Notes under the pieces: generated by a model
The model's input: the letters and a program-made list of their open reading frames with translations, nothing else
What the model was told of the DNA's origin: nothing
The model's database searches: none
Made by a program: the position numbers and the translations under genes
DNA from: Acidobacteriaceae bacterium
GTDB taxonomy: Bacteria; Acidobacteriota; Terriglobia; Terriglobales; Acidobacteriaceae
Assembly: GCA_003156805.1 (NCBI GenBank)
Contig: PMHV01000031.1
Span: 486 to 62,494 of the forward strand
Length of the DNA stretch: 62,009 nucleotides
Direction of reading: 5' to 3'
Shown: in pieces, positions 7,417 to 56,515 of the stretch
Layout: the number at the start of each line of letters is the position of its first letter
Numbering within the stretch: the first letter of the stretch is position 1

Positions 7417-8319
7417 ATGGCGGATGCTGCATACAGCCGAGCCGATCTGCTGAGGATTCTTCACCTTACCCCGCGCCAGTTGGCCAACTGGGAGCGGGCA
7501 GGGCTGATCGCGGTCGCGGTCGCTTATTCCTTTTCCGATTTGTTGAAAGTGAAGAAAGTGCGCGACCTCTGCGCCATGAGTGTGCGGCCGGCGGTGCTGC
7601 GCGCGTCGATGGAGGCGATGCAGCGGCGGGCGGCGGGGATGGGGAATCCGCTTCTGGAGGCGGGCGCGTCGTCTACCAGTAAGCACCGGGTCGCATTCCG
7701 GCACGAGGGAAAACTGCTGGAGCCGATCGCCGGGCAGTTCGTGATGGACTTTTCGCCCGGGGAAAAAGTGGTGACCCGCACGCCGATTCCGGCCCCCGAT
7801 CCCACGCCCGATGAGAATGAGGCTGCGGTGTGGTTTGCCCGCGGTGTCACTTTGGAGGAGAATCCGGGCACGCAAACCGAGGCTATCGCGGCCTACCAGA
7901 AGGTGCTTGAGTTCGACCCCGCTCACGCGGCCGCGCACATTAACCTGGGCACGCTCCACTACAACCGCCAGGATTTTCACCTGGCCGAAAAACATTACCG
8001 CGCAGCGCTGGAAGCCGATCCCCGCTATGCCCTGGCTCATTTCGACCTGGGCAATGTTCTGGACGAAACCGGGCGCGTGCGCGACGCCATACAGACCTAC
8101 AAGACGGCCATTCAGCTCGCTCCCACCTACGCCGACGCACACTACAATCTCGCTTTGGCCTACGAGAAAACGCGCGAGCCGCGAAAAGCGCTGCAACACT
8201 GGCGGGCCTACGTCAAGCTTGACACGACCGGTCCCTGGTCGGTTCACGCCCGCAACCAGATTCAGCGAATTCTGCAGGCCGATGGGCTGAAGTTGGTGCA
8301 AGGCGGCAAACAGGGCTGA
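7417..8319 (+). CDS. MerR-type HTH domain fused to TPR repeats
   Basis: 300-residue protein. Residues ~6-60 (YSRADLLRILHLTPRQLANW, then YSFSDLLKVKKVRDL) resemble the winged-helix DNA-binding domain of MerR regulators. A linker of about 90 residues follows, then at least three tetratricopeptide repeats with the usual pattern (FDPAHAAAHINLGTLHYNRQ, ALAHFDLGNVLDETGRVRDA, YADAHYNLALAYEKTREPRK). No effector or metal-binding cysteines were seen. ATG at 7417 is preferred over the upstream open frame, which runs through a repeat. A DNA-binding scaffold or tetratricopeptide sensor is an inference; function unknown. Confidence 0.78.
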   Translation: MADAAYSRADLLRILHLTPRQLANWERAGLIAVAVAYSFSDLLKVKKVRDLCAMSVRPAVLRASMEAMQRRAAGMGNPLLEAGASSTSKHRVAFRHEGKLLEPIAGQFVMDFSPGEKVVTRTPIPAPDPTPDENEAAVWFARGVTLEENPGTQTEAIAAYQKVLEFDPAHAAAHINLGTLHYNRQDFHLAEKHYRAALEADPRYALAHFDLGNVLDETGRVRDAIQTYKTAIQLAPTYADAHYNLALAYEKTREPRKALQHWRAYVKLDTTGPWSVHARNQIQRILQADGLKLVQGGKQG

Positions 8320-14558: not shown

Positions 14559-14661
14559 GAGATCAGTTGTCAGTTGCCGGTTGCGAGTTGCCAGTTGCCA
14601 GTTGCTAGCACAGTCGTCAGTCGTGACTGGCCACTGATCACTGGCCCCTGAACACTTTTCT
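14559..14661. repeat. CAGTTGCC-type short repeats between scpA and scpB
   Basis: The 103-base spacer consists mostly of CAGTTGC / GAGTTGCCAGTTGCCAGTTGC units plus GTCAGTCGTGACTGGCCACTG, which is self-complementary in part. The same CAGTTGCCA-type wording occurs inside dnaE2 at about 55455-55480. Confidence 0.6.
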
Positions 14662-39582: not shown

Positions 39583-39612
39583 ACAGTTTTTCTCCGTGCC
39601 TCTGCGCCTCCG
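39583..39612. repeat. Single arm of the CTCCGTG...CGTGGTGA repeat
   Basis: TTTTTCTCCGTGCCTCTGCG, then CCTCCGTGGTGAGA, matches the right arm of the inverted-repeat element found twice in dnaE2. No left arm is present here, so it is a solo arm in an intergenic position. Confidence 0.6.
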
Positions 39613-39633
39613 TGGTGAGACGACTAACGCGGC

Positions 39634-50027: not shown

Positions 50028-51044
50028 ATGTCTTCCGCAGTGGTTTCCACTTCGGCGGTCCAGAGCCGCCCTTTTATATTTGAAAATAACAGCGTTGCCG
50101 AAGTGTGTCCTCAGCCTTCCGGCGCGGAACTTTTCGCAGGGCGTCCGCCCCAGCGTGTTTTACCTGCCGATTTTTTCAAAGCTTTTGCAGAAGACTCGCG
50201 GCTTGCGGGAGTGACCCCGGCTTCGCGGCTGGAGGTGTGGCCTGCGCCCGAGATGGTTTCGAGCGGCATTTCCGCCATCGAGACTCTCACCGGAGGCCTG
50301 CCCCGCGGCTGCCTGAGCGAAATCTGCGGACCTGCCTCTTCCGGGCGCACAACCTTGTTGCTGGCCGCTCTGGCGGCTTCTACCCGGCGCGGAGAATTCT
50401 GCGTAGTGGTGGATGCCAGCGATGCCCTCGATCCGCAATCGGTTTCGGCTGCTGGCGTGGATTTGGACCGGATGTTATGGGTGCGGTGCGGAGGGAATTT
50501 ACCACGGAGGCACCCTTCGGCTTGGCTCAGAGCTTGTCCTGAGCTTGCCGAAGGAACAAGCTCCGACACAGAGAAGAAAAATCTCCAACGCAATCAGGTT
50601 TCCAAATTTGACGAAAACGGATCGCACCATGCCGAACATTGCTTGGAACAGCTTTTGCGCGCTACGGACCTGCTGCTGGAAAGCGGAGGCTTCGGGCTGG
50701 TTGCGCTCGATTTGAGCGATGTGCCGCTGCAGGCGGCGCGCCGCATCCCGCTGACCACGTGGTTCCGCTTTCGCCGCGCCGTGGAGCATACCCCGGCCGT
50801 GCTGCTGGCAGTTGCGCAGCAGCCCGTCGCCGGAAGCTGCTCGTCATTATTAGTGAAGCTGGGAGCCAGTGACCATCGGGCCAGCGAGCGCTTTCCTACT
50901 GACGGCAAATTTGCGAAGCCCACACATGCGCACTTGCTGACCGGAGTGGAGATTACGGCGGAACTGGTGCGCTCGCGCCTGGACCGCAAACCAGTTCGTT
51001 CTGCCGCCATCACATTCGCCAGCACAACCGCCTGGGCGGGATGA
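50028..51044 (+). CDS. imuA: ImuA, RecA-like component of the SOS mutasome
   Basis: 338 residues. The RecA-like core has GLPRGCLSEICGPASSGRTT (Walker A GPASSGRT at 101-108), FCVVVDASDALDP, and the later FGLVALDLSDVPLQAARRIP with TTWFRFRRAVEHTPAVLLAV. ImuA works with ImuB and DnaE2 in error-prone lesion bypass. Residues ~157-200 are an extra segment (LPRRHPSAWLRACPELAEG and DTEKK) encoded by two nested repeats; homologues go straight from WVRCGGN to the AEHxLxxxD helix. ATG follows GAGGAATCT. Confidence 0.87.
   Translation: MSSAVVSTSAVQSRPFIFENNSVAEVCPQPSGAELFAGRPPQRVLPADFFKAFAEDSRLAGVTPASRLEVWPAPEMVSSGISAIETLTGGLPRGCLSEICGPASSGRTTLLLAALAASTRRGEFCVVVDASDALDPQSVSAAGVDLDRMLWVRCGGNLPRRHPSAWLRACPELAEGTSSDTEKKNLQRNQVSKFDENGSHHAEHCLEQLLRATDLLLESGGFGLVALDLSDVPLQAARRIPLTTWFRFRRAVEHTPAVLLAVAQQPVAGSCSSLLVKLGASDHRASERFPTDGKFAKPTHAHLLTGVEITAELVRSRLDRKPVRSAAITFASTTAWAG
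50498..50625. repeat. Nested in-frame repeats inside imuA
   Basis: The left arm ACCACGGAGGCAC (50501-50513) and the continuation GACACAGAGAAGAAAAA (from about 50564) belong to the same element found in dnaE2. Between them sits a second palindrome whose arms begin CCTTCGGC and end GCCGAAGG (50514-50530 and 50540-50555). No stop codon arises and the imuA frame continues. Confidence 0.75.
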
Positions 51045-51144: not shown

Positions 51145-52812
51145 ATGCCGTTCGCCTGCATCTACGTGCCGGATTTTCCCGTGGCCGCGGTATTGCGCGC
51201 GCAACCGCAGTTGCGGGCGCGGCCTCTAGCCGTGCTCGAAGGCAAGCCTCCGCTGGAAAAAGTTTTCGCCGTGAACGAGAAGGCCGGGCGCATGGGAATT
51301 ACGGCCGGCATGACCAAGGCACAAGCAGAGTTGTGCGCGGAACTGGCGTTGCGCTCGCGTTCTTTACTGCAGGAATCTTCTGCGCATGCCGCTTTGCTGG
51401 ATTGCGCGCAATCGTTCTCGCCCCGCGTGGAAGATGCTGCGGCCGACACGGCGATTGTAGATCTCCAAGGCATGGAATCTCTTTTCGGCTCGCTGCCAGA
51501 AATTGCCCGTAACTTCTTCCGCCGCGCCGCGGACCTCGGACTTGATGTGAATGTTGCTGTGGCTTCGAATCCCGACGCGGCCGTGCTCGCGGCTCGCGGC
51601 TTTTCCGGCATGAACATAATCCCTTGCGGAAAAGAAGCGGAACAACTCGGCTCTCTGCCGCTCAAAGTTTTATTTGCGGATCGGCCCGGAAACGATGAAA
51701 AAGAGCGCGAACAGGAAAAGAAAGCCACTCGTCTGCTGGAAACGCTAGACCGCTGGGGAGTGCATAATCTGCGCGCTCTGGCCGCGCTACCGGAAGTTGC
51801 GTTAAGCGAGCGTCTGGGACAGGAAGGCTTGCGCTTGCAGCAACTGGCGCGGGGAGCGGCCTCGCGCACTCTGGTTCCCGTGGAAGCACCGCTGGTATTT
51901 GAGGAAGCCGCAGAGCTGGAACATGCAATCATGCTGCTGGAGCCGCTGGCCTTCCTGTTGAACCGTCTGCTTGAGCAACTTTGCGCGCGATTGGCCTCGC
52001 GGGCTTTAGCTACGCAGGAACTGCGGCTCACGCTGGAACTCGACAACCTGACGGGCATGGATTGCGAATGGGATAATCGCGGCATTCCCAGCGAAAGCGA
52101 TGCCTCGCCGAAAGCTCAATCCGGATCGCCGCAATTCGGGGCGGCTCAACCTTTTATTTCCCGCCGGAAAAATAAATTCTGCCGCACGCTTTGCCTGCCC
52201 CTGCCCATGCTCGATGCCAGACTCTTCCTCAAGTTGCTGCAACTGGATTTGAATGCGCATCCGCCCGGCGCGCCCATCGTGAAGATTCATCTGGCTGCGG
52301 AACCCTCGCGGCCGCGCTTAGCCCAAGGGAGCTTGTTTCTGCCTCCCTCGCCGGAACCGGAAAAGCTGGAACTCACGCTGGCGCGGATTGCCGCTCTGGT
52401 TGGCGAAAGCCGGGTGGGATCGCCGGAGTTGATGGATACGCACCGTGCCGAGGGCTTTCACATGCGGCGCTTCATGGCTGGAGTGGCGCAGCAAAATACT
52501 CAGCCACAAATTGTTGCGGGAGACAAATCCGCCGTCACAGCGCTGCGTTTATTCCGTCCGCCGCTTCGGGCTGCCGTGACTCTCGAGAACGCCCAGCCCA
52601 CGCTGGTAACCTGTGCGAAGAAAAAAGAAGTTCAGGGCAATGTGCTGTGGAAGGCTGGTCCGTGGCGCTCTTCCGGCGATTGGTGGGAGCGCCAGGCATG
52701 GGCGCGCGATGAATGGGACATCGCCTTGCAAAACACAAGCGGCATCGCTCTCTACCGGCTGGTGCACGATTTGCTTGGTGGCGGCTGGTTCGTGGAAGGA
52801 ATGTATGACTGA
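51145..52812 (+). CDS. imuB: ImuB, Y-family polymerase-like mutasome protein
   Basis: 555 residues. The N-terminal FACIYVPDFPVAAVLRAQPQ and PLAVLEGKPPLEKVFAVNEK, then MGITAGMTKAQAEL, are typical of ImuB. ImuB lacks the full set of catalytic carboxylates and acts as the hub that links DnaE2 and the beta clamp. An HhH-like part (LLETLDRWGVHNLRALAALP) and the C-terminal WWERQAWARDEWDIALQN follow. A stretch around residues 310-335 (IPSESDASPKAQSGSPQFGA) is low-complexity and may be another insert. ATG at 51145 lies after a repeat-filled spacer with no good ribosome site. Confidence 0.87.
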   Translation: MPFACIYVPDFPVAAVLRAQPQLRARPLAVLEGKPPLEKVFAVNEKAGRMGITAGMTKAQAELCAELALRSRSLLQESSAHAALLDCAQSFSPRVEDAAADTAIVDLQGMESLFGSLPEIARNFFRRAADLGLDVNVAVASNPDAAVLAARGFSGMNIIPCGKEAEQLGSLPLKVLFADRPGNDEKEREQEKKATRLLETLDRWGVHNLRALAALPEVALSERLGQEGLRLQQLARGAASRTLVPVEAPLVFEEAAELEHAIMLLEPLAFLLNRLLEQLCARLASRALATQELRLTLELDNLTGMDCEWDNRGIPSESDASPKAQSGSPQFGAAQPFISRRKNKFCRTLCLPLPMLDARLFLKLLQLDLNAHPPGAPIVKIHLAAEPSRPRLAQGSLFLPPSPEPEKLELTLARIAALVGESRVGSPELMDTHRAEGFHMRRFMAGVAQQNTQPQIVAGDKSAVTALRLFRPPLRAAVTLENAQPTLVTCAKKKEVQGNVLWKAGPWRSSGDWWERQAWARDEWDIALQNTSGIALYRLVHDLLGGGWFVEGMYD

Positions 52813-52814
52813 AG

Positions 52815-52897
52815 GAATTGAGTCATTGAGTGATTGAGTCATTAAACCCAATCGCTCAATGTTCAATTGCTCAATGACTCAATTGCTCAATGACCCA
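52815..52897. repeat. ATTGAGTCATTGA-type repeats between imuB and dnaE2
   Basis: AATTGAGTCATTGAGTGATT and inverted CAATGTTCAATTGCTCAATG units fill the whole spacer right up to the dnaE2 start. Any ribosome site of dnaE2 has therefore been displaced or is supplied by the repeat; several ATG triplets of the repeat are in or out of frame. Confidence 0.7.
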
Positions 52898-55800
52898 ATG
52901 TATGTTGAGCTTCATGCCCGCTCTGCGTTCAGCTTCCTCGAAGGCGCTTCTTTGCCGGAGGAATTGGCAGCTGCCTGCGCGAAGCTCAACATGCCAGCCA
53001 TGGCGCTGCTCGACACCGACGGCGTTTATGGCGCACCGCGTTTTCACTTAGCCGCGAAGAAGATTGGGATCAAGGCGCACATCGGAGCGGAGGTCAGCGC
53101 AGCTTTACCACGGAGCCACGGAGGCACGGAGAAAACAAAGACCAATTCACAATCTCAGATCGACGATGTGTATGGAAACATCTCCGGCAATCAACTTAAC
53201 GATTCCTCCGTGCCTTCGTGTCTCCGTGGTGAGATGTGCCGTGGTGAGTTCCGTATTCCACTTCTAGTTTTCTCCCGCTCGGGCTATCAGAACCTTTGCC
53301 GGCTGATCACAAAAATGAAATCGCGCGGGAAGAAAGGCGAAGGCGCGGTGCGGGAAGAAGAGATGGGAGAGCATGCCAACGGTCTCATTTGCCTGACTGG
53401 CGGCGCGGAAGGGCCGCTGGCGGCGGCTTTGCAGCAGAGCGGCATCGAAGAAGCTCACCGTCAAGTCGAGCGTCTGGTGGGGATTTTCGGCCGCGGCAAT
53501 GTTTACGTCGAGTTGCAACGCCATCTTCAGCGCGAAGAAGAAACTCGCAACCGCGCTGCGATCGCAATCGCCCGCTCGCTCAATCTTCCTGTGCTGGCGA
53601 CCAACGGCGTCCACTATGCTGTCGCGAAAGATCGCGAACTCTGGGATGCATTTACCGCCATCCGCCATCACCGCACACTCTCGACGGCCGGACGTTTGCT
53701 GGCGCGCAACTCCGAACGATATTTGAAATCGCCGCAAGAGATGCAGCAACTTTTCTCCGACCTGCCCGAAGCGATTGCCAATACGCTTGAACTTTCCTCG
53801 CGCCTTGAATTTACGCTCAACGATCTCGGTTACGAGTTTCCGCGCTATCCCGTACCCGAAGGCGAAACCATGAACTCGTTTTTGCGCGAGCGAGCCTGGG
53901 AGGGATTTCGCCGGCGCTATGGCCGGACATCACACGAAATGCAAACCCGCGCCCGGCGCCAGATTGAGCGTGAACTGGCGCTCATCGAAAAACTCAAACT
54001 TGCCGGATATTTTCTCATCGTTTGGGATCTAGTTCGTTTCTGCCGCGAGCAAAACATTCTGGCGCAAGGGCGCGGATCGGCCGCCAACAGCGCCGTCTGT
54101 TATTCGCTGGGCATCACCGCGGTCGATCCCGTGAGCATGGAGCTGCTCTTCGAGCGTTTTCTTTCCGAAGAGCGCGGCGAGTGGCCCGACATCGATCTCG
54201 ACCTGCCCAGCGGCGACGAACGTGAAAAAGTGATTCAGTACGTCTACCGGCGCTATGGAGAGCGGGGCGCAGCCATGACCGCGAATGTCATCACTTATCG
54301 CAACAAGATGGCAGCTCGCGAAATGGGCAAAGCGCTCGGCTTCGACCCCGAAACGCTCAACAAGATTTCCGCTGCCGTCGCCACCTGGGAGTTTCGCGAC
54401 GAAAACGACGCGCTCGACCGCCGCTTCCGCGATGCCGGACTCGATCTCAACCATCCGCGCCTGCGCAAATATTACGAACTGTGCCTTGCCGTGCAAGACA
54501 TGCCGCGCCATCTCGGCCAGCACTCCGGCGGCATGGTGATTTGCCAGGGACAACTCGATTCCGTCGTTCCGCTCGAACCCGCTTCCATGCCCGGGCGTGT
54601 GGTGGTGCAGTGGGACAAAGAAGATTGCGCCGACATGGGCATCATCAAAGTCGATCTGCTCGGCTTGGGCATGATGGCCGTGCTCAAGGATTCGATCGAA
54701 CTGATTCGCCATCATTATCGCGAAGAAGTCGATCTGGCGCATCTTCCGCAGGACGATCCGCAGGTTTATTCCGCTCTGCAGCAAGCCGACACCGTGGGCA
54801 TGTTTCAAGTGGAAAGCCGCGCGCAAATGTCATGCCTGCCGCGCCTGCGGCCGAAACGCTTCTATGACATTGTGGTGCAAGTGGCGATCATCCGCCCCGG
54901 ACCGATCGTAGGGCAGATGGTGAATCCGTTTCTCTTGCGCCGCCAGGGACGCGAGGACGTCACATATCCGCATCCGTCGCTTGAACCGGTGCTCAAGCGC
55001 ACGCTGGGCGTGCCGCTTTTTCAGGAGCAACTGCTGCGGCTGGCCATGATCGCCGCCAACTTCACCGGCGGCGAAGCGGAAGACCTGCGCCGCGCCATGG
55101 GCTTCAAGCGATCGCAGGCGCGCATGAAGGAAATCGAAGCCAGGCTGCGCGCCGGCATGACGGACAACGGAATCCCGGCTGAGGCACAAGAGAAAATCAT
55201 TCTCTCGATCACATCTTTCGCACTTTACGGGTTTCCCGAATCGCACGCGGCCAGCTTCGCGCTGATCGCCTATGCCAGCGCTTACTTGAAGTGCCGCTAT
55301 CTGGCTGCGTTTACCGCCGCTCTGCTCAACAACCAGCCCATGGGATTTTATTCTCCGGCCACCATCGTGAAAGATGCGCAGCGCCATGGTTTGAAGATGC
55401 TGCCGGTGGATGTGATGCGGTCGGAATGGAGGTGCACGTTGGAAGCAGTGGCCAGTAGTCAGTTGCCATTTGCCAGTGAGTCAGTACCGAGTACCGAGTA
55501 TCGAGTACCGAGTAAAACCTTTGCCATTCCAGTCCCGGAATTATCGCGAGCGATAGAAAAAACTTTTGTCATTCCGACCCCCGAGCGAACACGAGGGACG
55601 GAGGAATCTCGTTCTTGCTCGCAACTCGGTACTCGCGACTCGCAACTCGCCCTTGCACTGCGTCTCGGCCTGCGCTACGTGCGTGGGTTGCGCGAGGGAT
55701 CTGCCCAGGCGCTGGTGCGTGAACGTGAGCGCGCTCCATTCACTTCCATTCACGATCTGACGCGCCGCGTTCCCGAGCTGCGCAAAGACGAACTGACTAC

Positions 55801-56515
55801 GCTGGCGGAAATCGGCGCGCTGAATGTAATCGGCACTTCACCACGGAGACACGGAGACACGGAGAAGAACAAAAACAAGGCCCAAAAATCTTCGTTGACT
55901 CTCACGGACTACCAAGAATCAGTCAAAGATTTCTCCGTGCCTCCGTGTCTCCGTGGTGAAACGGCTTTTCATCGCCGCGACGCTCTCTGGCAGGTCGAAC
56001 GCGCCGTGCGCGGCTCTGGCCCGCTGCTGGAGGATCTGCCCGAACCCGATTCGCCTTCGCCGCTCCAGCCCATGAATCATGAAGAGCGTTTAGTCGCCGA
56101 CTTTCACGGCACCGGCCTCACCGTGGGACCGCATCCCGTGGCTTACCGCCGTGCATGGCTCACGGCCATGGGCATTCGCCGCGCCAGCGAATTGCGCGAC
56201 ATTCCCAGCGGCAGACGGATTCGCATTGGAGGTTGCGTCATCATTCGCCAGCGTCCAGGCACTGCCAAGGGATTTGTCTTTGTCAGTCTGGAAGATGAAA
56301 CCGGTGTGGCCAATGCCATCATCACGCCCGCTCTTTTTCACCGCAATCGTCTGCTGCTGGCCAGCGAACGCTTTCTGGCGATTGAAGGCATCCTGCAGAA
56401 TCAGGACAATGTGATTTCTGTGAGAGCCGAGCGTGTGCTGCCGGCGGAAGTGACCCCTAGCTTCAGCCAACGCGCCGGTCCAATTCCAAGCGGAAAACGT
56501 GATCACGAGCCATAG
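52898..56515 (+). CDS. dnaE2: Error-prone DNA polymerase III alpha subunit DnaE2
   Basis: About 1205 residues versus ~1050-1100 usual. The PHP domain begins VELHARSAFSFLEGASLPEE. Catalytic aspartates are in EWPDIDLDLPSGDEREKVIQ, and other palm/finger blocks are GRGSAANSAVCYSLGIT, GQHSGGMVICQGQ and FPESHAASFALIAYASAYLK. The C-terminal OB part has IRIGGCVIIRQRPGTAKGF. Extra length is due to three in-frame repeat insertions at about residues 70-111, 849-923 and 980-1021. ATG at 52898 is the first codon matching the family; ATG at 52859 would add residues encoded by a repeat. Performs mutagenic synthesis past lesions with ImuA and ImuB. Confidence 0.92.
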   Translation: MYVELHARSAFSFLEGASLPEELAAACAKLNMPAMALLDTDGVYGAPRFHLAAKKIGIKAHIGAEVSAALPRSHGGTEKTKTNSQSQIDDVYGNISGNQLNDSSVPSCLRGEMCRGEFRIPLLVFSRSGYQNLCRLITKMKSRGKKGEGAVREEEMGEHANGLICLTGGAEGPLAAALQQSGIEEAHRQVERLVGIFGRGNVYVELQRHLQREEETRNRAAIAIARSLNLPVLATNGVHYAVAKDRELWDAFTAIRHHRTLSTAGRLLARNSERYLKSPQEMQQLFSDLPEAIANTLELSSRLEFTLNDLGYEFPRYPVPEGETMNSFLRERAWEGFRRRYGRTSHEMQTRARRQIERELALIEKLKLAGYFLIVWDLVRFCREQNILAQGRGSAANSAVCYSLGITAVDPVSMELLFERFLSEERGEWPDIDLDLPSGDEREKVIQYVYRRYGERGAAMTANVITYRNKMAAREMGKALGFDPETLNKISAAVATWEFRDENDALDRRFRDAGLDLNHPRLRKYYELCLAVQDMPRHLGQHSGGMVICQGQLDSVVPLEPASMPGRVVVQWDKEDCADMGIIKVDLLGLGMMAVLKDSIELIRHHYREEVDLAHLPQDDPQVYSALQQADTVGMFQVESRAQMSCLPRLRPKRFYDIVVQVAIIRPGPIVGQMVNPFLLRRQGREDVTYPHPSLEPVLKRTLGVPLFQEQLLRLAMIAANFTGGEAEDLRRAMGFKRSQARMKEIEARLRAGMTDNGIPAEAQEKIILSITSFALYGFPESHAASFALIAYASAYLKCRYLAAFTAALLNNQPMGFYSPATIVKDAQRHGLKMLPVDVMRSEWRCTLEAVASSQLPFASESVPSTEYRVPSKTFAIPVPELSRAIEKTFVIPTPERTRGTEESRSCSQLGTRDSQLALALRLGLRYVRGLREGSAQALVRERERAPFTSIHDLTRRVPELRKDELTTLAEIGALNVIGTSPRRHGDTEKNKNKAQKSSLTLTDYQESVKDFSVPPCLRGETAFHRRDALWQVERAVRGSGPLLEDLPEPDSPSPLQPMNHEERLVADFHGTGLTVGPHPVAYRRAWLTAMGIRRASELRDIPSGRRIRIGGCVIIRQRPGTAKGFVFVSLEDETGVANAIITPALFHRNRLLLASERFLAIEGILQNQDNVISVRAERVLPAEVTPSFSQRAGPIPSGKRDHEP
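53107..53230. repeat. 124-bp inverted-repeat element inside dnaE2, copy 1
   Basis: Arms 53107-53131 and 53206-53230 (25 bases, about 23 paired) start ACCACGGAGCCACGGAGGC. The core of ~74 bases differs from copy 2. It is read without stop as LPRSHGGTEKTK...SSVPSCLRGEM, in the PHP domain. Confidence 0.85.
55443..55665. repeat. Composite repeat insertion inside dnaE2
   Basis: Three intergenic-type repeats in a row. First come CAGTTGCCATTTGCCAG-like units. Then GAGTACCGAGT runs (55490-55525) with inverted ACTCGGTACTC at 55623-55640. Between them are two CATTCC(A/G) units, the second followed by GACCCCCGAGCGAACACGAG. All are read in frame between EWRCTLEA and LALRLGLRYVRG, where homologues have a short loop. 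Confidence 0.7.
55837..55960. repeat. 124-bp inverted-repeat element inside dnaE2, copy 2
   Basis: 30-base arms (55837-55866 and 55931-55960) match in 29 of 30 positions, starting TTCACCACGGAGACACGGAG. The 64-base core is unrelated to that of copy 1. Read in frame as SPRRHGDTEKNK...FSVPPCLRGET, between EIGALNVIG and HRRDALWQVER. Confidence 0.88.

Follow-up and report, generated by a model that had tools for sequence, protein, structure and literature searches.

In-frame palindromic repeats in loops of the ImuA-ImuB-DnaE2 mutasome of acidobacteria

The mutasome cassette formed by imuA, imuB and dnaE2 is interrupted, in frame, by palindromic repeats in a 62,009-nucleotide stretch of the genome of an Acidobacteriaceae bacterium (GenBank assembly GCA_003156805.1, contig PMHV01000031.1, positions 486 to 62,494 of the forward strand; this whole stretch is called the window below). 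In this report, we describe an in-frame invasion of mutasome loops by such repeats in uncultured acidobacteria from soil, which is real and has recurred: in most rows aligned from the genus, three loops of DnaE2, two of ImuA and one of ImuB are filled in frame, in many cases by contents that can be assigned to one of several unrelated repeat families, and the inserts at these fixed loops turn over between species and set the mutasome apart from control genes. Spread of the repeats combined with tolerance in the loops is the most likely mechanism, and we give a probability of roughly 0.7 to the reading that these are mobile palindromic repeats, tolerated in mutasome loops and working like the Rickettsia palindromic elements.

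Results

The error-prone DNA polymerase gene dnaE2 (52859..56515, + strand) is an open reading frame (ORF) of 1218 aa whose product matches the error-prone polymerase model NF004225 with 1208 bits against a cut-off of 939. Its conserved part runs from 52904, which is probably also the true start, because the first possible ATG (52859) lies inside a palindrome in the spacer between imuB and dnaE2 (52817-52899). A preliminary description of this DNA had reported two 124-bp palindromes in frame in dnaE2, and both were borne out. The first, S1 (53107..53230, + strand, 124 bp), sits within the PHP domain, with a modelled strand on either side, and has 28-nt arms (53107-53134/53203-53230) with 25/28 positions paired (89% complementary); the other, S3 (55837..55960, + strand, 124 bp), lies at the end of the HHH_6 match and has 30-nt arms (55837-55866/55931-55960) with 29/30 paired (97% complementary). 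These CACGGAG palindromes read PRSHGGTEK...SVPSCLRGE and PRRHGDTEK...SVPPCLRGE, so the left and right peptides are as claimed, and both lie in the open 1218-aa ORF. The earlier reading missed a third insertion in dnaE2, S2 (55445..55650, + strand), a composite in which TTGCCAGT- and GTACCGA-type heptamer arms (AGTACCGAGTACCGAGT / ACTCGGTACTCG) enclose another palindrome, CATTCC...GGAATC; it is translated as SSQLPFASESVPSTEYRVPSKTF...FVIPTPERTRGTEESRSCSQLGTRDSQL. It also missed an insertion in imuA (50493-50577) and the spacer palindrome. At 14564-14656 the window holds an array of TTGCCAGT-type heptamers that matches DnaE2 S2 inserts of other species.

We then compared the DnaE2 loops across relatives. 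A match to DnaE2 was found in 59/61 genomes (weaker DnaE1 matches counted in), and 90 of 110 fetched loci entered the alignment, 20 being dropped as partial or lacking the start motif; the 90 rows retain duplicate assemblies. Inserts of at least 20 aa occurred 43 times at S1, 42 times at S2 and 40 times at S3, against 4, 8, 7 and 1 elsewhere. Among genus rows whose loop could be extracted by motif, the loop reached at least 20 aa in 21/23 at S1, 18/18 at S2 and 24/24 at S3, with S1 short in G018 (9 residues) and G021 (13). The loops of the window's DnaE2 measure 52, 71 and 48 residues at S1, S2 and S3, and those of three outgroup DnaE2 proteins 6, 2-10 and 5-7. Because the outgroup loops are short, S1-S3 are insertions, not ancestral loops; the copy said to occupy a short-loop position of homologues, S3, does so, and as far as tested distant homologues do not share the peptides.

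The insert peptides fall into several families, including PRRHRDTEK...SVPPCLRGE (CACGGAG), NNQQSTI (AATCAAC), DPVILSGASASRSEALAESKDPY...IPRSARNDK and AAERRQNAAHGASRG..., together with GTACCGA heptamers that read STEYRVPSK...SVLGTRYSQL around FVIPTPERTRGAEES, the latter occurring in reverse as FLRPSLALGGRND too. What had been presented as one element in one gene is therefore real as a repeat insertion, but comprises several families in fixed loops of ImuA, ImuB and DnaE2. When 108 inserts (six duplicate assemblies removed) were compared with 200 backbone windows for palindromicity, 40 stood out at p<=0.01, rising to 49 at p<=0.05; nine of the 40 strongly palindromic inserts come from loci L090 and up, and six of these nine lie well outside the genus, in L098, L099, L107 and L131 (53-63% identity).

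In an AlphaFold model of DnaE2 residues 1-1193 (mean predicted local distance difference test score, pLDDT, 66.9; 33 sequences), residues 71-113 (S1), 853-914 (S2) and 979-1021 (S3) have pLDDT <50, the loops scoring about 28-39. S1 lies within the PHP domain, S2 and S3 flank the HHH_6 match, and in the model S1 and S2 connect neighbouring strands and S3 connects two helices. The alignment to the solved DnaE 3e0d breaks off before S1 and S2 and picks up after each. The model lends support to the inserts being unstructured but is no proof, as other low-pLDDT stretches exist. Two further variations of DnaE2 were seen. Eight loci (L129, L135, L137, L140, L141, L144, L145 and L148) encode an additional zinc-ribbon-like segment, e.g. 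CPKCGCDD...FCNVCSHEW, after residue 940 of the alignment reference, which in some adjoins repeat-like peptide, and in G029:C136 (L290) the polymerase part of DnaE2 is shorter by about 53 residues (query residues 430-482).

The other mutasome subunits are affected in the same way. The ImuA loop that carries the insert of the window is filled by at least 8 aa in 16/21 genus rows and a second ImuA loop in 12/21, and a variable ImuB loop is filled to this extent in 17/23, with only some of its contents recognisable as repeats. In the controls, an insert was present in 1/25 DnaE1 and in 0/15 UvrA, the latter being the 15 best-matching genus copies, with longer second UvrA copies left out. PolA, considered as a further variable host since its open frames range from 846 to 1070 aa in the genus, was rejected: among 18 rows the variation consists of an Ala/Pro-rich N-terminal stretch (variable in 13), bar two single internal inserts. 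The DnaE1 of the window's own genome matches as two pieces in different open frames (G000:C13:352266-354414), probably a frameshift or assembly error.

The CACGGAG family was followed through the genomes. Each arm repeats the octamer CACGGAGN three times in tandem, and the two arms are inverted relative to each other; the full arm consensus from 45 elements is TTCACCACGGAG... and ...CTCCGTGGTGAA, and the element ends read TTCACC...GGTGAA. The triple-octamer arm CCACGGAGNCACGGAGNCACGGAG has 5 matches in the window (<=3 mismatches) against 0 in 100 shuffles, and the solo arm reported near 39583 was located at 39588..39620 (- strand) by arm pattern match. Over the 5.03 Mb (75 contigs) of the window's genome, a two-unit arm with <=1 mismatch gave 60+54 matches against 13+23 for the reversed control, overlapping units included, and the inverted arm pair gave 11 forward matches at 7 places against 0. 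The family is thus dispersed and multi-copy. In 36 loci fetched around 100 of the 114 arm matches, together with the window, 47 arm clusters were found, 19 of them paired; the two in dnaE2 are the only paired elements deep within a long ORF, and there are two solo arms well inside ORFs as well, in an ATP-dependent DNA ligase (L184) and in a 255-aa ORF without Pfam match (L154), where the arm reads SPRSHGDTEK. The triple arm is present in 17/23 genus genomes searched and in 0/14 genomes of the neighbouring family, and the arm-pair pattern occurs across the phylum in 14/396 genomes and 9/210 genera. Triple arms were also seen in 42 viral contig stretches (L233-L274), possibly as carriers and possibly through host contamination. 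With the phylum and viral matches taken together, the spread is patchy yet wide.

Only the arms are widely shared. The 46 distinct elements compared are 61-145 bp long when measured from CC to GG, and 18 reach at least 97 bp (equal to 105 with full arms), and an all-against-all blastn of the 40 cores of at least 20 nt returned 27 hit rows, 25 of which fall among seven elements with AATCAAC-type DNA (six located in the DnaE2 of other species and the seventh immediately downstream of DnaE2). The cores of the two window copies, which had been described as unrelated, match neither each other nor any other copy. Arm covariation was considered as a sign of a selected hairpin and set aside: the within-element match excess has p 0.0002 over the 46 elements from several genomes and p 0.08 over the 19 elements of the window's genome, so genome-specific variants explain at least part of the arm matching. 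The terminal inverted repeats typical of miniature inverted-repeat transposable elements are present, as 28-30 nt arms in the window and as arms in the 46 elements.

Most copies lie between genes, and a few other genes are hosts. For G014, 400 kb were searched as 20 stretches of 20 kb; mutasome-loop DNA matched 34 places against 3 in the reversed control, of which 28 are intergenic, 3 at gene ends and 3 deep in genes (315 crudely called); two of these last three are 17-bp single matches. Among the matches listed in element-peptide profile searches, SPRRHRDTEK-type CACGGAG arms occupy the same internal position of a YoaA/DinG-type repair helicase in three relatives (L384 2283-4604, L385 2499-4763, L386 2713-5043), and MnmG/GidA of one genome (L389 2379-4589) has an in-frame STEYRVPS...SVLGTRSSVLG insert. 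The DNA ligase of the window's genome (L184 6790-8772) carries its in-frame solo arm at 8119-8141 (IIHHGGTEARREAK), read HHGGTEARRE in a phase other than in DnaE2, and a second stretch, QGLKPAFLEASNGTAEAV, that we take to be repeat-like. Several candidates were not accepted as hosts. Among eight profile matches in longer ORFs that were checked, L387 has no family match and its profile match lies at the ORF end; the matches in L388, L390 and L391 are near the frame start, may be upstream of the true start and were left uncounted; and of 12 copies deep in long ORFs three lie outside DnaE2, one in an asparaginase (L412), where the copy precedes the likely start, and two in ORFs without Pfam match, likewise left uncounted. 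The mutasome is therefore the main host found and not the sole one, and the helicase and the ligase are likewise repair proteins.

Part of the compatibility of the repeats with coding sequence is arithmetic. Computation shows that tandem units of 7 or 8 bp encode the same cyclic peptide in every frame of a strand, so arms that are open cannot close a frame, and stops are absent from both strands in 50% of 7-mers and 46% of 8-mers. This yields a simple rule for gene-compatible repeats: tandem units, a length that is not a multiple of three, and no stops. All 9 distinct paired CACGGAG copies recognised in DnaE2 by the arm rule have a length of 3n+2 and are read in one phase, whereas the 34 pairs that are not deep in long ORFs have lengths distributed 13/11/10 over the three classes modulo 3; random phase and frequent stops were not seen in genes as far as tested. 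The proposal that copies keep one phase and leave the frame open accordingly stands for DnaE2 (9/9), with the reservations that it is in part trivial arithmetic and that the ligase arm differs. AATCAAC units are closed on one strand, and in loops their open orientation was found in 18/107 and the reversed one in 2/107, orthologues included. A perfect tandem of ATTGAGT, the spacer heptamer, is closed by stops in all three frames of one strand; five ATTGAGT patterns were found in 0/107 loops, which says little, as the patterns include its open orientation.

The loop contents change rapidly. On a quick backbone tree of 38 rows, built without the loops and leaving 7 forks open, S1, S2 and S3 change element class at least 14, 14 and 16 times, respectively; the classes were set by our own text patterns, and the catch-all class 'other' holds 9, 17 and 12 of the 38 rows. 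The close sisters G036 and G029 share S2 and S3 and have unrelated elements at S1. The pooled pN/pS of the inserts is 0.73, compared with a backbone dN/dS of 0.05-0.19, which suggests that the inserts evolve like weakly constrained peptide. Insert dS was below backbone dS in 14/14 comparisons (hand-picked and non-independent), as would follow if the copies arose after the gene split or are homogenised.

Candidate movers were sought among Y1_Tnp genes, which occur in 52/61 genomes, two of them in the window's genome. At five of eight fetched Y1_Tnp loci short hairpins flank the gene on both sides; the ImuA insert of G012 shares 90% over 39-40 nt with the flanking hairpin of L425 and L426, and in L428 a copy of the AAERRQNAAHG family lies about 0.5 kb from the gene. 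Thus, transposases of the Y1 type, or REP-associated tyrosine transposase (RAYT) type, where REP stands for repetitive extragenic palindromic sequence, are likely the mover of the hairpin families, such as CCCGGCAC...GTGCCGGG, which is found beside RAYT-like genes and in ImuA of one relative. One CACGGAG copy lies about 1 kb from a Y1_Tnp gene (L422); a RAYT as CACGGAG mover was rejected for want of any link among the 8 loci, and none was found for the heptamer families.

The remaining features of the window complete the cassette. The imuA-like gene (50028..51044, + strand), first in gene order, is RecA-like (PF00154, 1.1e-14) and scores 36.8 bits with the ImuA model NF033429, under its own cut-off of 150. 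The imuB-like gene (51145..52812, + strand) is a Y-family homologue (IMS PF00817, 9.9e-21), and dnaE2 is third, so that all three genes stand in the order of the ImuA-ImuB-DnaE2 mutasome cassette, the first with a sub-threshold model score. The in-frame insert in imuA (50493..50577, + strand) is a composite repeat with a CACGGAG left arm and a nested CCTTCGG...CCGAAGG palindrome at 50514-50554 (hand-counted position), is read ...RRHPSAWLRACPELAEGTSSDTEKKN, and matches mutasome-loop DNA from other species. The spacer palindrome (52817..52899, no strand assigned) consists of ATTGAGT-type tandem units with inverted pairs of 27 nt (89%) and 25 nt (88%).

Discussion

We propose that several families of short, non-autonomous palindromic repeats would spread through these genomes, mostly to intergenic sites, and that a few surface loops, three in DnaE2, two in ImuA and one in ImuB, may tolerate additional unstructured peptide. 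Copies in these loops that are a multiple of three and stop-free would survive and be translated, the compatibility of the arms being partly arithmetic, with 7- and 8-bp units of which about half are stop-free on both strands. The translated copies would then drift as weakly constrained sequence, while other repeats nest in, trim or replace them. Under this proposal copies would move as DNA, the loops would be tolerated and not selected, and purifying selection would clear copies from most other genes. Of the earlier suggestion of a mobile, protein-compatible repeat, the dispersal, the many copies and the kept frame hold; movement is inferred and compatibility is partly a matter of arithmetic.

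Several observations weigh against this proposal. Sixty-eight of the 108 inserts are non-palindromic at p<=0.01 and may be decayed or of other origin. No target-site duplication was consistent among 45 elements at k=2-9, with only k=4 above chance (3/45, p 0.002), and movement of a copy between near-identical genomes was not caught. One phase is shared by CACGGAG arms in DnaE2 S1/S2/S3, ImuA, the YoaA-like helicase and L154 (inferred from peptides in the last three), with the ligase arm as the exception; neutral tolerance does not predict this, and the sole explanation we can offer is that it may reflect avoidance of TGA at the right end. Inserts common to >80% of rows would escape the ImuA/ImuB/DnaE1 and UvrA/PolA counts. 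Finally, tolerance alone leaves unaccounted for why one operon has many copies and other genes few, and why the non-mutasome hosts are again mostly DNA-repair genes (helicase and ligase).

The changes of loop state may reflect homologous exchange of old alleles between species, with no new insertion. We regard this as possible though clearly the less probable course: contents of the two main S1 classes can be aligned between non-sister species, and the S1 right flank of G036/G029 has 8 differences in 43 bp (hand count), above the backbone average, but neither the 45-nt flanks nor those of 46-135 nt group according to element class at S1, S2 or S3 (12 tests, p >0.2 in every case), and simple allele exchange is therefore not shown. 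It is rather unlikely that the inserts are selected, tuning mutasome activity, partner binding or turnover in the manner of the mutator idea of Di Nocera et al. Every one of the three subunits of a single complex is hit, and copies also occur in a repair helicase and a DNA ligase; moreover, S1 is a PHP-domain insert, S2 and S3 border HHH_6, and in the accessible text of a structural study ImuB contacts are modelled on the PHP domain and (HhH)2 (PMC12926913). Sequence, length and family nevertheless vary among species, S1 is short in G018 and G021, and the pooled pN/pS is 0.73.

Somewhat less likely still, in our estimate, is that damage-response genes are preferred targets into which the repeats spread during damage-induced repair synthesis, by template switching or by single-strand transposition at induced loci; if true, a mutation-making machine would keep rewriting the loops of its own and other repair proteins, a fast and frame-safe diversification. 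That the inserts are ancestral variable loops that only resemble repeats is very improbable: some, notably in ImuB, contain no recognisable repeat and 59/108 DnaE2 inserts are non-palindromic at p<=0.05, yet the outgroup loops are short, the same DNA is dispersed between genes and 40 inserts are palindromic, so that for the recognisable families this explanation is largely refuted. An artefact of metagenome assembly or binning deserves the least credence of all. The named relatives classed for the tree are metagenome-assembled genomes, but the in-frame inserts recur in these loops across numerous assemblies that carry different isolate names, and DnaE1 of the genus is clean.

Mobile repeats tolerated in mutasome loops would thus give a dense natural series, of one operon, six loops, several repeat families and dozens of species with clean paralogue controls, in place of scattered reports such as those of the Rickettsia elements and of REPs in repair genes. 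It becomes possible to test whether palindromes that encode protein are neutral passengers and what draws them to DNA-repair genes. For annotation it carries a warning that such peptides are repeat DNA, not domains.

Comparison with known systems

Short tandem heptamer repeats of cyanobacteria consist, as here, of 7-bp tandem units between genes; to our knowledge they are intergenic and do not form palindromic pairs within genes. In the open-licence literature, which lacks most subscription papers, no report of such inserts in Acidobacteria was found, and six literal repeat strings had no match there; the accessible portions of PMC3919608 and PMC12926913 do not mention them. The presence of REPs in repair genes including dnaE2 is already known; new is the denser, fixed-loop case in acidobacteria. 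According to the accessible text of Di Nocera et al. 2013 (PMC3733652), repair genes, dnaE2 and a DNA ligase among them, contain REPs and are at times the only REP-tagged genes of a species; loops were suggested as tolerant sites, two Xanthomonas species have different REPs near the same recB site, Acidobacteria have a distinct group of tyrosine transposases, and mutator effects of REP-tagged repair proteins were speculated on. Those REPs are GTAG- or CGTC-tagged and 20-40 bp long, whereas the ends of the CACGGAG elements carry neither tag in the 45-element consensus; as far as that text extends, imuA and imuB are absent from its main part and genus-wide turnover at fixed loops, as seen here, is not described. 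The likeness to the REPIN/RAYT systems, as portrayed in the accessible parts of PMC3116915 and PMC2817692, consists in short repeats arranged as inverted pairs and in the frequent Y1_Tnp genes (52/61 genomes); unlike in those systems, the CACGGAG cores are not conserved, and no link of CACGGAG or heptamer families to Y1_Tnp genes was found.

The closest parallel is with the Rickettsia palindromic elements (Ogata et al. 2000, 2002), which, in the accessible text of PMC2229807 and PMC10969869, are palindromic, up to about 150 bp long and of several families, and lie in frame in protein genes and also between genes, with target duplication not established. The resemblance proposed for the two dnaE2 copies holds in the way both work, that is, in-frame insertion into otherwise conserved protein genes, additional intergenic copies and several families; membership is not shown, as only the arms are conserved. 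The Rickettsia elements measure 105-146 bp, the window copies 124 bp and the 46 elements 61-145 bp. The CACGGAG family differs in sharing widely only its arms, with no conserved core or peptide. The repeats described here have arms of tandem 7-8-bp units and variable cores; the Rickettsia elements are spread over many unrelated genes, and the in-gene copies found here are concentrated in one repair operon, mostly in the mutasome and also in a helicase (3 genomes), a DNA ligase and MnmG (1 genome).

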